Assembly (NCBI GenBank): GCA_947258795.1
Contig: CAMYJU010000005.1
Coordinates: 62,001 to 126,000 of the forward strand
Length of the DNA stretch: 64,000 nt
DNA from: an uncultured Gammaproteobacteria bacterium
GTDB taxonomy: Bacteria > Pseudomonadota > Gammaproteobacteria > DRJJ01
Direction: 5' to 3'
Positions 28,545-34,999 of this stretch are shown here, piece by piece; the stretch's first letter is position 1; every line of letters begins with the position of its first letter. The translations under genes and the position numbers were made by a program. Under the pieces are notes generated by a model, which saw only the letters and a list, made by a program, of their open reading frames with translations, was not told the DNA's origin and searched no databases.

Positions 28545-31500
28545 CTACCGATCGAATCGGCTGCTTGCATAAGGCACTGAGGCGCGAGAACCAAGATACC
28601 TTTCAATAGCCTCAATATCACTGGTGGTCAGTGAATCCAGGTAGGACATATCGGTCTTGGCTTTGATTGCCCTGATGAGGTCACGAGCCAATTCACCGCG
28701 TACATCCACACCACTGATGCCGCCACTACCGTCTTCACCGTGGCAGCTGGCGCAGTTGGATGTATACAGTGCTTTCGGTTTGGCTTTACCGATAACCTCT
28801 ACCGGCCTGCTAGTCAGGAAGTCCTCGATGACCTGTACCTCCGTTGCAGACATCGTCGCAGGACTGAGCAACGATGGCCCTGCGATAGCTTGGCTTGCAG
28901 CCTGAGGTTTCGCTGCAGGAACTGCTGGTTTGACCTGAATGGCCTGAGCCAGCTCAGCTGATATGCTGCTACCACTATTCGCTACAGGCTGTACGGTCGT
29001 GATGCCGATATGGCCTTTTCTATCGCGCCAGTTCAGCTCTTCATCGCCCTCACCACCGCCACCTCCGCCGCTGCTATCCAGGAAGCTGGCGATCGCCGCG
29101 ATATCCTTGGATGACAGGAACGACAGGTACTGCATTTCCGCTTCACTCTCTATCGCTTCGGAGATACTGCTGGCTGAATCGCCACGCACATCCTCACCAC
29201 TGGTACCACCGCTACCGTCGGCACCGTGACAGGAACCGCAATGGGTCGCATACAGTCCATCCGGCGTGGTCGGTGTCGGCGCCGTAGCCAGGTAGTCCGC
29301 GATCGCCTGGATATCAGAAGCGGTCAGGAAGCTCAGGTAGCCCATGGACGGTTCATTCACTATACCGCTATTAATGCGGGTCACGTCCGCACCGACCTTG
29401 GAGCTGTTGGTTCCCGGGCCATGACAGCCGGCACAGTTGTTGGTGTACAGGGTCGCACCATCAGCCGGTCCAGTGGGTGGCTGGGTCGGCGCCAGAGAGA
29501 CCAGGTAATCTGCCATTGCCTGGATATCGGACGCCGGCAGCGAGGCCAGGCTGTTCATCGAAGGTACATTCTGTATACCGTTATTGATACGGGTTACATC
29601 TGCACCTGCCTTGGAGGTGTTGGAACCAAAGCCATGACAGCTACCACAGTGCGTATCATACAACTGCTGCCCGTTCGTACCACCTGGTGGTGGCGGCGGT
29701 GGCGGCGGTGCCAGGGACACCAGGTAATCCGCGATCGCCTGGATATCGGACGCCGGCAGTGAACTGAGGAAGTTCATTGATGGTGCATTCACGATACCGT
29801 TGTTGATACGGGTCACGTCCGCACCCGCCTTGGTGCTGGCTGCACCAAAGCCATGACAGCTGCCGCAGTTGCTGTCATACAACTGCTGTCCGTTACTACC
29901 ACCTGGAGGTGGAGGTGGCGGCGTTGTATCCCCATCCAGGAAGTCTGAAATCAGCTGGATTTCCGTAGAGGTCAGGAAGCTCAGGTACTGCATTTCAGAC
30001 TCATCCTGAATTGCTTCACTGATATCACTGGCTGAATCGCCACGCACATCCTCACCACTGCTGCCGCCACTACCATCAACACCGTGACAGGCTGCACAGT
30101 AGGCCGCGTACAGTCCTGATGGTGTGGTCGGTGGTGCCAGTGTGGCCAGGTAATCCGCAATCGACTGGATATCAGACGCTGGCAAGGTACTCAGGAAACT
30201 CATGGAAGGATCATTCGTGATCCCGTTGTTAATACGGGTCACGTCTGCCCCTGCCTTGGAGCTGTTTGCACCAAAGCCATGACAGCCTCCACAGTTGTTG
30301 TCATACAACTGCTGGCCGGTACTACCACCAGGCGGTGGTGGTGGAGCCAGTGACACCAGGTAATCCGCGATTGCCTGGATATCGGATGCCGGCATTGAAC
30401 TCAGGAAGTTCATCGAAGGCACGTTCACAATACTATTATTGATACGGGTGACATCCGCACCTGCCTTGGTACTGGCCGCACCAAAGCCATGACAGCTACC
30501 GCAGTTATTGTCATACAGCGTCTGGCCGTTTCCTCCACCTGGTGGTGGTGGCGGTGGTGTGGTATCCCCGTCCAGGAAGTCCGATATCAGCTGGATTTCC
30601 TGAGAGGTCAAGAAGCTCAGGTACTGCATTTCAGACTCATCCTGAATTGCTTCACTGATATCACTGGCTGAATCACCGCGCACATCTTCACCACTGGTGC
30701 CACCACTACCGTCCGCACCGTGACAGGAGCCGCAGTAGGTAGCATACAGACCGGAGCCTGAAGTCGGCGGCGCCAGCGAGGTCAGGTAATCAGCGATCGA
30801 CTGGATATCGGCCGCCGGCAATGAACTGAGGAAGTTCATCGACGGTTCATTTGCTATCCCGTTATTGATACGGGTGAGATCCGCACCGGCCTTGGTACTG
30901 TTCGCACCGAAGCCATGGCAGCTTCCACAATTGGTATCATACAACTGCTCGCCGGTACTGCCACCTGGCGGCGGTGGCGGCGGTGCAAGAGACACCAGGT
31001 AGTCTGCAATGGCCTGAAGATCGGCTGCCGGCAGTGAACTCAGGAAGTTCATCGACGGTACGTTCACAATCCCGGCATTGATCCGGGCCAGGTCTGCACC
31101 GGCCTTGGTACTGTTGGCACCGAAGCCATGACAGCTGCCGCAGTTGGCATCATACAACTGCTCACCGGTACTGCCACCTGGTGGCGGTGGCGGCGGGGCC
31201 AGAGACACCAGGTAATCCGCAATCGACTGGACATCGGCCGCCGGCAGTGAACTCAGGAAGTTCATCGACGGTTCATTTGCTATCCCGTTATTGATACGAG
31301 TGACATCTGCACCGGCCTTGGTACTGTTGGCACCGAAGCCATGACAGCCTCCGCAGTTGGCGTCATACAACTGCTCCCCGGTACTACCCCCCGGTGGTGG
31401 CGGTGGCACCAGCGATATCAGGTAATCCGCGATTGCCTGTACCTCTGCAGCACTGAGGAAGCTCAATGAGTTCATGGACGGTTCATTCACGATACCATTA

Positions 31501-32825
31501 TTAATGCGAGTTACACCCGCACCCACCTTGGTACTGTTGGCACCGAAGCCATGACAGTTGCCACAATTGGCATCATACAGAGCCTGTCCATCGAGTGGAC
31601 CTGTATCGATCACCGTGACCGTTGCCACATCCGTAGCCTGCAGTCCGTCATTATCGGTTACGGTCAGGGTTACGATATAGGTACCCGCAGAAGAATAGCT
31701 ATGGAGCGGATTCAGGCCGGTACCGGTGGTACCGTCACCGAAATCCCAACTATAACTGACGATGTTACAGTCGGGGTCGGATGATCCGGATCCATCAAAC
31801 TGGACATTGGATCCAACCGTACCGTTATACAGTCTTCCGGTACCGCCACCTGCATGTGCGGTCGGTATATCCACCCCGCTACTGGCGATGGTCGCAGAGG
31901 TACTGGCTGTACCGGTCAGGCCAACACCGTCGGTCACCGTCAGGTCTACATTATAGGTACCGCAACGACTGTATGCGTGCGTCGGGCTGGCAAAGCCGGT
32001 CGCTGAAGCGCCGTCACCGAAATCCCAGCTATAGCTTAACGCGGTACCTTCCGGGTCACTGGATCCGGTACCATCAAACTGTACCGGGGCATTGACGACA
32101 CCGGTTACCGGCGCACCGGCGTTCGCAACCGGTGGGCTGTTGGGTGTCTGCAACACGGTAACGAACGTGGTATCCGTAGCGATATTACCGCTATCGTCAG
32201 TGATCGTGAGCGTCACCAGGATGGTTGCCTGGAAGTTCAGGTTATAGGTAAACAGCGGATTGGCTTCGGTACTGGTGCCATAACCGCTGCCGAAATCCCA
32301 GAAGTAGGCAACAATAGTACCATCCGGATCAGTTGAACCGGCACTACTGAACTGGATCGGAACGCCTGTTGAACCGACATAGGGTCCGTTGATATTGACT
32401 ATCGGCGGTGCACCGCTTCCGACGCATCCCGGGTTATTCGGGTCAACAAAGTTGGCCAGTCCGGCTGGTGGATTCTGGGCACTGACCAGATTGCCACAAC
32501 TGAAACTTGGCATAAACAGTTGCGCAGCTTCCGCATCATTGCTCGTACCATCGCCATCGGAATCAAATGTCCCGATAGCCGAGATACTGTAATTGTTGTT
32601 GCGGAAGTCTACACCGTACTGCGTTAGTAGACCACCGCCATTGAAATTGACATGACAGAGACCGCAATTGGATATTCGCGTCCCGGCCGTTCCGTAGTTG
32701 GTATCGAAATCGTTTTGGTAACTACTGAATGCGAGGGCTTCGGTGCTTGCCAGACTCACTACCAACAACAGTAGTGTATTGAGAAGACCTGACCCCGCTA
32801 ACAGCCTTTGTTTCAGACTTTTCAT
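28545..32825 (-). CDS. Giant exported polycytochrome: 3 PKD domains + 14 CxxCH haem sites
   Basis: The 1426-residue exported protein has a signal peptide (about 1-32, ALA|F), an N-terminal CGLCH (54-58) with a Ca-binding-like DSDGDG (88-93), three PKD domains (about 141-226, 231-314, 321-407, each with a WDFG core), then thirteen monohaem c domains from C421 to C1358. Two types occur: A with CHGFGANSTKAGAD and SMNFLS, and B with CHGADGSGGTSGEDVRGDS and EMQYLS; the order is A A A A B A A B A A A B B. The conserved Met suggests His/Met ligation. PPPPPGG linkers join domains. There is no membrane anchor or sorting signal. It is probably periplasmic or extracellular and electron-carrying; its partners are unknown. 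Confidence 0.9.
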   Translation of the reverse strand: MKSLKQRLLAGSGLLNTLLLLVVSLASTEALAFSSYQNDFDTNYGTAGTRISNCGLCHVNFNGGGLLTQYGVDFRNNNYSISAIGTFDSDGDGTSNDAEAAQLFMPSFSCGNLVSAQNPPAGLANFVDPNNPGCVGSGAPPIVNINGPYVGSTGVPIQFSSAGSTDPDGTIVAYFWDFGSGYGTSTEANPLFTYNLNFQATILVTLTITDDSGNIATDTTFVTVLQTPNSPPVANAGAPVTGVVNAPVQFDGTGSSDPEGTALSYSWDFGDGASATGFASPTHAYSRCGTYNVDLTVTDGVGLTGTASTSATIASSGVDIPTAHAGGGTGRLYNGTVGSNVQFDGSGSSDPDCNIVSYSWDFGDGTTGTGLNPLHSYSSAGTYIVTLTVTDNDGLQATDVATVTVIDTGPLDGQALYDANCGNCHGFGANSTKVGAGVTRINNGIVNEPSMNSLSFLSAAEVQAIADYLISLVPPPPPGGSTGEQLYDANCGGCHGFGANSTKAGADVTRINNGIANEPSMNFLSSLPAADVQSIADYLVSLAPPPPPPGGSTGEQLYDANCGSCHGFGANSTKAGADLARINAGIVNVPSMNFLSSLPAADLQAIADYLVSLAPPPPPPGGSTGEQLYDTNCGSCHGFGANSTKAGADLTRINNGIANEPSMNFLSSLPAADIQSIADYLTSLAPPTSGSGLYATYCGSCHGADGSGGTSGEDVRGDSASDISEAIQDESEMQYLSFLTSQEIQLISDFLDGDTTPPPPPPGGGNGQTLYDNNCGSCHGFGAASTKAGADVTRINNSIVNVPSMNFLSSMPASDIQAIADYLVSLAPPPPPGGSTGQQLYDNNCGGCHGFGANSSKAGADVTRINNGITNDPSMSFLSTLPASDIQSIADYLATLAPPTTPSGLYAAYCAACHGVDGSGGSSGEDVRGDSASDISEAIQDESEMQYLSFLTSTEIQLISDFLDGDTTPPPPPPGGSNGQQLYDSNCGSCHGFGAASTKAGADVTRINNGIVNAPSMNFLSSLPASDIQAIADYLVSLAPPPPPPPPGGTNGQQLYDTHCGSCHGFGSNTSKAGADVTRINNGIQNVPSMNSLASLPASDIQAMADYLVSLAPTQPPTGPADGATLYTNNCAGCHGPGTNSSKVGADVTRINSGIVNEPSMGYLSFLTASDIQAIADYLATAPTPTTPDGLYATHCGSCHGADGSGGTSGEDVRGDSASSISEAIESEAEMQYLSFLSSKDIAAIASFLDSSGGGGGGEGDEELNWRDRKGHIGITTVQPVANSGSSISAELAQAIQVKPAVPAAKPQAASQAIAGPSLLSPATMSATEVQVIEDFLTSRPVEVIGKAKPKALYTSNCASCHGEDGSGGISGVDVRGELARDLIRAIKAKTDMSYLDSLTTSDIEAIERYLGSRASVPYASSRFDR

Positions 32826-33409: not shown

Positions 33410-34738
33410 TCAGAAGCACACGCAGTTTTTCCCCTCGGCCTTGGCCTCATAAAGCCTTTGGTCCGCGCGCTTGAATAACGAGTCCGTATCATCTTTTTCA
33501 TTCAGTCCGGCCACCCCCAGACTAACTGTGACTTGACCGATTTCCCTAAATCTATTCGACTCCACATCGGCACGGATTTTTTCTGCCAAGTGCTGGACAC
33601 CTTCCAGCTCAGTATTGGCACAAATTACGACAAACTCCTCGCCGCCATACCTGACCAGACGGTCATTCTTGCGGATGATACACCTGATCAGATGCACCAG
33701 TTCAACCAACACCCTGTCTCCTGTCTGGTGCCCATAGCTATCATTGATCTGTTTGAAGTCATCTATATCCAGAACGATAATACCAAGCGGCACGGAAGAT
33801 TGCTGGGCACTGACCAGTAAATTGGACAACAATTCCTCGAACTTGCGCCGATTCATTGCATTGGTAAGCGGGTCTGTTTCTGACAACCTGACTTTTTCGC
33901 TGATAACACTCTGTGCCTGCTTGACAATAATATTTGACATTATGTTATCAAGCACCAAGGTCAGTTTATAGATTTCCAGTATATTGATAATCAGTGACAA
34001 CACTTCATAGTAGGCCTCCCTTTTTAGATAAAAAAATATGTTTTCGGTATTCGCAACAAGTCGAAACCTTATCTGCTCTATCTCATCAAAATTGACAGGC
34101 TGCTCGATATCGCCGAGATGATCTTTTATATAAGAGTAAACCGTGTTCTCGCCCATACGCTGGCGCTCAACCAGATTATTTTGCGCCTGGTAGTCCTTTT
34201 GCTCTATGGCTGTAAGCAAATCCATCATCCACTTGTAGTGCTCGATCAAAAAATCCCGTTCCGCACCAAACGTGGCATTCTTTGTCATTGTTATGATTTT
34301 CTGCAAATCATTCTTTTCTTTCCTGATATAGACATCCATATAGCCTTTGGCCATGGCGTCAGAAACAAAGTCAAACAGATCCTCGTTTAGCAGGATCAGA
34401 CGAATATCCCCGATTTTCTCCGCGATTATATCATTAATAATATTTCGCAGGATGGTGGTACCGCTTAAGAACACCTCATAGGGAATGTCATGTTGGTAAT
34501 GAACTACACCAACCTGGTAGTAACGCCTCAGCAAATCCTTCCTGGACTCATGCAAAGTTTCGATAAGATTCTGTTTTTGCCTGAGCAGTAATTTTCTTAC
34601 CTGCTTGTCACTATTAAAGTATTTCGAAAATACCTTGTTAGACAATAATTCATCGTAGAAACGCCTGAATATTTCATCAGCATATTCAACAAGACATATC
34701 AGCTTTTTAAAATCGACCGGTAACAGCGAGTCTCTCAT
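33410..34738 (-). CDS. Globin-coupled diguanylate cyclase
   Basis: Makes cyclic di-GMP in response to a haem-bound gas. Residues 1-150 form a sensor-globin domain; QVGVVHYQHDIPYEVFLSG carries the predicted proximal His80. A helical middle part (about 160-280) resembles the DosC/YddV linker domain. The GGDEF domain has DPLTNAMNRRKFEELL, IVLDIDDFKQINDSYGHQ and an active GGEEF at 365-369. An RxxD inhibitory site (RKND, 356-359) lies five residues upstream, so product inhibition is expected. ATG 34738 has GAGGTG before it; an ATG at 34756 is also in frame. It is monocistronic, upstream of the cytochrome gene on the same strand. Confidence 0.85.
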   Translation of the reverse strand: MRDSLLPVDFKKLICLVEYADEIFRRFYDELLSNKVFSKYFNSDKQVRKLLLRQKQNLIETLHESRKDLLRRYYQVGVVHYQHDIPYEVFLSGTTILRNIINDIIAEKIGDIRLILLNEDLFDFVSDAMAKGYMDVYIRKEKNDLQKIITMTKNATFGAERDFLIEHYKWMMDLLTAIEQKDYQAQNNLVERQRMGENTVYSYIKDHLGDIEQPVNFDEIEQIRFRLVANTENIFFYLKREAYYEVLSLIINILEIYKLTLVLDNIMSNIIVKQAQSVISEKVRLSETDPLTNAMNRRKFEELLSNLLVSAQQSSVPLGIIVLDIDDFKQINDSYGHQTGDRVLVELVHLIRCIIRKNDRLVRYGGEEFVVICANTELEGVQHLAEKIRADVESNRFREIGQVTVSLGVAGLNEKDDTDSLFKRADQRLYEAKAEGKNCVCF

Positions 34739-34999
34739 TTGCCACCTCTGCTTCAAGTAAACAAAATAATACTCACTCTCTCCACAGCCAGCCCTGCAAA
34801 AGACACATCCAAATAATTATTTTTTTAGTAAAAGATTTGCTGCATCGGCCGTCTGGTATCCCGGCATATCCTGACACTACCCGGCAGACCTTACTGCTTT
34901 TTATACATCAATTTCCAACCAGACTGCTAATTCAAGCCAGTGTTCAGCGCCTGGCACTTTAGTCTCAACTCTATCACTTATATTGTAGAATTGACTTAG

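Follow-up and report, generated by a model that had tools for sequence, protein, structure and literature searches.

The common account of electron transfer outside the cell relies on wires of tightly stacked haems. Tethered haems, demonstrated in a single Geobacter protein, have been suggested to occur widely. This protein, PgcA of Geobacter sulfurreducens (GSU1761; 8QJ6, 8QJG, 8QK0), consists of independent monohaem domains, with His/Met ligation in domains I and II (DI/DII) and a measured reach of 18 nm (Nash et al., PMC11520253), and PgcA paralogues with 3–14 haems have been reported (PMC11520253). Here, we analysed a window of 64,000 nt from an uncultured gammaproteobacterium of the lineage DRJJ01 (GCA_947258795.1, contig CAMYJU010000005.1, positions 62,001–126,000), whose minus strand encodes a polycytochrome of 1426 residues (window positions 28545–32825) in which three PKD domains precede a string of 13 small monohaem ("mini-c") domains. 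We consider it likely that this protein is a secreted electron carrier of the PgcA type, with tethered haems, that works outside the cell for an outer-membrane conduit. Because of the reported 3–14-haem paralogues, neither the haem number nor the tethered-haem principle is new; the novelty lies in the placement of PKD domains ahead of the string and in the genomic context of this layout, and no description of PKD domains joined with mini-c strings was found in the literature searched. The original prediction, made from this DNA alone, had named no characterised protein with this layout, which holds only for the combination of PKD and mini-c domains and not for the string of monohaem domains as a principle, characterised in PgcA.

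Domain architecture and kinship with PgcA

The open reading frame is complete, begins with ATG and stays open over 4.3 kb. Its product contains 14 CxxCH motifs, as predicted, and shuffling its residues yielded a mean of 0.008 and a maximum of 1 (2000 shuffles). Pfam searches returned 13 stretches of Cytochrome_CBB3 (PF13442, 1.9e-95) and three of PKD_4 (PF18911, 5e-58), in agreement with the three PKD and 13 monohaem domains initially proposed. The first CxxCH (residue 54) sits in an N-terminal domain of its own together with the anticipated EF-hand-like loop (DSDGDGTSND, DxDxDG type) ahead of the array. For the mature protein, we computed a pI of 4.1 and an apoprotein mass of ~141 kDa. Judged by its sequence, the polycytochrome is real and functional-looking, and its parts are arranged as follows:

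32730–32825, minus strand: predicted Sec signal peptide, residues 1–32 (...ASTEALA/FSS), no lipobox cysteine (from sequence)
32415–32729, minus strand: N-terminal haem domain, residues 33–137, with CGLCH at 54 and the Ca-binding-like loop DSDGDGTSND (sequence, Pfam)
32151–32411, minus strand: PKD domain 1, residues ~139–225 (Pfam PKD_4, approximate boundaries)
31881–32141, minus strand: PKD domain 2, residues ~229–315 (Pfam PKD_4, approximate boundaries)
31602–31871, minus strand: PKD domain 3, residues 319–408 (Pfam PKD_4, best stretch 334–405)
29076–31595, minus strand: 12 monohaem mini-c domains, residues 411–1250, in the order AAAAB AAB AAAB with Pro/Gly linkers (sequence, Pfam, repeat alignment)
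28788–29069, minus strand: haem-less Ala/Pro-rich spacer of ~100 residues, residues 1253–1346 (sequence)
28593–28787, minus strand: last mini-c domain, type B and the most divergent, residues 1347–1411 (sequence, repeat alignment)

The mini-c domains fall into two types, as the original prediction had it, but without strict alternation: they run AAAAB AAB AAAB, followed by the spacer and a final B. The expected poly-Pro/Gly linkers are present, most A-A linkers reading PPPPP(P)GG; A-A and B-A linkers carry 5–8 prolines plus GG, a pattern from which only the linker joining mini-c domains 10 and 11 (SLAPTQPPTGPADG) departs. Linkers within the array span 8–20 aa, with one haem per ~60-aa domain and haems spaced 65–77 aa apart. 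Since A-to-B linkers are only ~8 aa long (e.g. SLAPPTSG), the A and B domains so joined may work in pairs. The haem-less spacer is possibly a decayed mini-c copy, as its end (MSATEVQVIEDFLTS) is similar to the final helix of such a domain. The N-terminal haem domain has a weak resemblance to Temptin_C (17.6 bits, below the cut-off) and is conserved in the closest relative (genome G126, see below) and in the host's own PKD paralogue; an AlphaFold2 model of this domain alone was too poor to be used (predicted local distance difference test score, pLDDT, 38). The paralogue, on host contig C20 (L057 7362–9248, minus strand), joins a similar N-terminal CxxCH domain to five PKD domains and a poly-Asp tail, and has no mini-c domains.

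Among PDB sequences, the array is matched best by PgcA domains I and II (8QJ6, 1.9e-10; 8QJG, 2.7e-9), and so is a single A domain (1.4e-10). In a Foldseek search with an A-B-A model, DI/DII were the convincing matches (probability 0.99–1.00, 37–43% identity, TM-score over target 0.59–0.68), with a modest model pLDDT of 68 and weak E-values (0.08–0.3) for this multi-domain query. In a FastTree phylogeny of mini-c domains, based on a short alignment and therefore indicative only, the A copies group with PgcA DI/DII and the A domains of relatives in G126 and G238, and the B copies with mini-c domains of other relatives. The type A domains are homologous to PgcA domains I and II, and the polycytochrome is an enlarged cousin of Geobacter PgcA. 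The two proteins have in common homologous monohaem domains of ~60 residues, proline-rich linkers and a repetitive string in which the haems are not packed into a chain. All 13 mini-c domains carry a Met at the aligned position (~25–35 residues after CxxCH; PSM or EM in the array of 12), which by homology to the His/Met-ligated PgcA domains is the probable distal haem ligand. Whereas PgcA has three haems and (PT)x linkers, the window protein has 13 mini-c domains on Pro/Gly linkers (PPPPPPGG type), an additional N-terminal haem domain, three PKD domains and a second mini-c class (B).

With putative His/Met mini-c domains, proline linkers and this PgcA homology, the protein fits the predicted beads-on-a-string carrier, unlike compact multihaem cytochromes. 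MtrC and OmcA, with which it probably shares a cell-surface role and next to whose usual partners its relatives are found, have a compact decahaem fold (TIGR03507), against which the window protein scored 31.9 bits (cut-off 209.3). The nanowire cytochromes OmcS, OmcE and OmcZ contain densely packed bis-His haems, whereas the polycytochrome has one haem per domain and probable Met ligands, and profile searches returned no such family. The mini-c domains belong to the same broad Pfam family as CcoP, subunit III of cbb3 oxidase (TIGR00782). We rejected a CcoP identity: the score of 186 bits passes the cut-off (179.95) only by summing 10 repeat stretches, the protein has no membrane anchor besides its signal peptide, and no oxidase genes are adjacent. 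Automatic annotation could consequently misname such a protein CcoP.

Age and integrity of the repeat array

The high similarity of the repeats had been taken as a sign of recent internal duplication, a view that their divergence does not bear out. Class A copies are 67–89% identical in DNA, with a synonymous divergence (dS) of 0.4–2.2 where calculable and a ratio of nonsynonymous to synonymous divergence (dN/dS) of 0.06–0.31 (NG86); for class B copies, dN/dS is 0.10–0.32 (NG86). Copies 6 and 9, one AAB block apart, share 92% of their amino acids. By these estimates, the array is an old structure under selection with some homogenisation and no fresh expansion.

The same data bear on whether the repeat number is inflated by assembly, or the gene decaying and no protein made, as the repetitive array and the potentially decayed haem-less spacer might suggest. 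The longest exact repeat in the gene is 63 nt; as no exact repeat reaches 70 nt and the copies are diverged at synonymous sites, a short-read collapse or expansion artefact, which the original prediction had named as a possible refutation, is unlikely. Moreover, dN/dS is low and all Cys, His and Met residues are kept despite wide synonymous divergence, and the frame is open throughout. Taken together, we regard an artefact or a decaying gene as scarcely credible.

Relatives of the polycytochrome beside mtrAB

Relatives were sought in 369 evenly sampled genomes of the class (array matches at 1e-8) and in a phylum-wide sample (1e-12); in both, at most two candidates per genome were scored, so that counts are lower bounds. 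At least 12 of the 369 class genomes, the host included, match the array, although some of the 12 are not PKD proteins. The phylum-wide sample gave no further match at its threshold among the candidates scored, at most two per genome, a whole-protein search of genome contigs returned a single weak and probably unrelated match (Naasia, 31%), and a plasmid search yielded none. The closest relative, in G126 (L050 8244–10718, plus strand), is 53% identical over the N-terminal half and follows the same plan, with a homologous N-terminal haem domain, three PKD domains and three A domains on PPPPPP linkers, followed by six CxxCH in three pairs. These paired-CxxCH repeats (HTDSENGFLHKTGKDYPYSNGCTSCHG...CFSCH) stand in place of further mini-c domains, and similar ones occur in L044 of G284.

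In four genomes from four families (G178, G238, G101 and G300), a PKD-mini-c gene, a small monohaem gene, decahaem mtrA and mtrB lie within ~6 kb, co-directional at two loci and divergent at two, with a dihaem cytochrome also adjoining. MtrA and MtrB are well above cut-off at all four (TIGR03508, 286–305 bits, cut-off 192; TIGR03509, 367–444 bits, cut-off 240), and no MtrC was found in the same cluster. Counting repeats in relatives, as the original prediction had proposed, gave 5, 3, 6 and 5 mini-c domains, respectively, behind one or two PKD domains; same-layout relatives exist in other Gammaproteobacteria. A choice-of-anchor-V-like haem domain was assigned by NCBIfam in G178 and judged by eye in the other three. 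Across the class sample, 27 genomes hold 30 mtrB places: OmcA/MtrC stands beside six (TIGR03507, 470–508 bits), a PKD-mini-c protein beside four, and neither beside the remainder, which includes Mto/Dms-like places and others truncated at the end of a contig. Both kinds of mtrAB locus occur once each in G101. Adjacency to mtrAB in four families would seem implausible as a product of chance. Baker et al. (PMC8805035) required MtrC homologues and removed matches with extra domains, so the PKD-mini-c clusters would have escaped their survey.

These neighbourhoods also bear on where the chain resides. It might instead remain in the periplasm as a reservoir or shuttle with room for up to 14 electrons, connecting cytochrome b modules of the inner membrane with the outer membrane, its PKD domains acting as spacers or binding peptidoglycan or a partner. 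Such a role would agree with a plain Sec signal lacking a surface-sorting signal, with two inner-membrane cytochrome b/multihaem modules on host contig C7, and with PgcA variants that can stay in the periplasm without PpcA-E (PMC12307469). The linked relatives, however, take the place of MtrC beside mtrAB, where the conduit already has an occupant in MtrA, an unrelated decahaem protein; two PKD-mini-c proteins (G037 and G284) end in GlyGly-CTERM-like tails of the surface-anchor type; and PKD domains are typical of exported proteins. We thus judge a periplasmic role unlikely, if worth keeping in mind. PKD domains also occur in secreted carbohydrate-active proteins, and one stretch within the PKD domains weakly resembles the C-terminal domain of the cellulose-binding protein Sde0182 (28 bits), which would suit an adhesin or a redox partner in polysaccharide degradation, with carbohydrate-binding PKD domains and a cytochrome string feeding oxidative enzymes. 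Among the neighbours of the gene and of its relatives, though, we recognised no carbohydrate-active or lytic polysaccharide monooxygenase-like gene; those of the relatives are electron-conduit genes, which makes this role very improbable.

The small monohaem proteins, always beside the PKD-mini-c gene at the four mtrAB loci, are a probable further component:

L048 10417–10785: small monohaem protein
L049 9085–9456: small monohaem protein
L051 8164–8838: small monohaem protein
L052 8320–8973: small monohaem protein

They are lipoprotein-like in G178, G238 and G101, with a cadherin-like stretch in two cases.

The host genome and a proposed tethered electron carrier

Several observations weigh against a secreted carrier at an outer-membrane conduit. 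In the host, the polycytochrome gene is isolated: the 25–37 kb around it contain no gene for a cytochrome or porin. No MtrB was found with PF11854 or TIGR03509; likewise, no MtrA exceeded the cut-off (best match to the MtrA model 35.5 bits, against 192.2). Shorter PKD-mini-c proteins in G284, G037 and G178 (contig C31) are not beside mtrAB, and four families are a modest sample. A Sec signal by itself would suit the periplasm as well. PgcA, moreover, is a lipoprotein with a bis-His mineral-reducing domain III, whereas the signal of the window protein ends ...TEALA-FSS without a lipobox Cys and domain III is absent, all mini-c domains carrying Met.

We surveyed the host's cytochromes through family searches and chosen stretches, and the best clue to its conduit comes from contig C7 (~163–186 kb; L062, L063). 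There, 18-, 11-, 8-, 7-, 6-, 4- and 3-haem cytochromes are clustered with two cytochrome b subunits, three NHL proteins and a 717-aa protein that is beta-barrel-like by sequence and matches no family. Nearly all genes of this cluster, including that for the barrel-like protein, have orthologues in G126 (34–81% identity), where the polycytochrome gene lies at the end of the orthologous cluster, ~3.5 kb from a 24-haem gene. The C7 barrel/NHL/multihaem/cytochrome b cluster is therefore probably the host's conduit, located on another contig. It resembles an electron conduit of the outer membrane, either undescribed or akin to PCC3/PCC4: as in PCC3/PCC4 of Fe(II) oxidisers (PMC5566968), the C7 and G126 clusters unite genes for a barrel-like protein, for multihaem cytochromes of very large size and for cytochrome-b-like proteins of the inner membrane, a likeness in cluster composition. 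They differ by their NHL proteins, and where PCC3/PCC4 use a dense multihaem chain, the polycytochrome is a mini-c string. GspD of the type II secretion system is present in the host genome (595 bits); this system exports MtrC and OmcA in Shewanella and is hence a plausible exporter here.

From the architecture, the PgcA domain homology, the conserved Cys/His/Met, purifying selection, the relatives' neighbourhoods and the presence of GspD, we infer an extracellular location, a conduit partner, anchoring and transfer by tethered diffusion. In the proposed mechanism, the chain would be exported by Sec, receive its haems in the periplasm and probably reach the cell exterior via type II secretion. 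Its N-terminal haem/PKD part would hold it at the surface or matrix near an outer-membrane porin-cytochrome conduit, with the three PKD domains as a stalk that could bind a surface or partner. The 13 small c-type domains of two classes, with predicted His/Met ligation, would be carried on stiff-but-flexible Pro/Gly linkers, and electrons would pass between them by transient collisions and not along a stacked haem wire. One strongly acidic protein could thus take up or hand over as many as 14 electrons across tens of nanometres; with 13 domains of ~2.5 nm and extended linkers, we estimate an upper bound of ~60–70 nm. In relatives, the homologous protein would replace MtrC at MtrAB conduits. Electron flow may serve mineral reduction, iron oxidation or cell-to-cell exchange.

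Around the gene itself, the upstream neighbour (33410–34756, minus strand, ~585 bp away and on the same strand) encodes a Protoglobin-GGDEF protein (Protoglobin 33.1 bits), a globin-coupled diguanylate cyclase and possible oxygen sensor. In the sister species G001, whose genome is 81% complete, only 196 bp of the 12.8-kb locus match in DNA; they lie immediately 3' of valS on a short contig.

With a string at the position of MtrC in four families, the tethered-haem idea gains a genomic footing in another class; the relatives' link to mtrAB is the unexpected part and yields a specific, testable claim. We see about an even chance that a class of Gammaproteobacteria has replaced rigid MtrC by PKD-fronted PgcA-like strings, its outer-membrane conduits feeding a flexible tether, and that the window protein, enlarged to 14 haems, works with a barrel/NHL/multihaem conduit of non-Mtr type. 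The family offers a natural length series of 2–13 mini-c domains in which the effect of domain number on reach and rate could be studied, and flags a class of proteins liable to be mislabelled as CcoP in model-based annotation. In conclusion, the polycytochrome and its relatives suggest that in some bacteria a floppy chain, rather than a rigid wire, carries electrons outside the cell.

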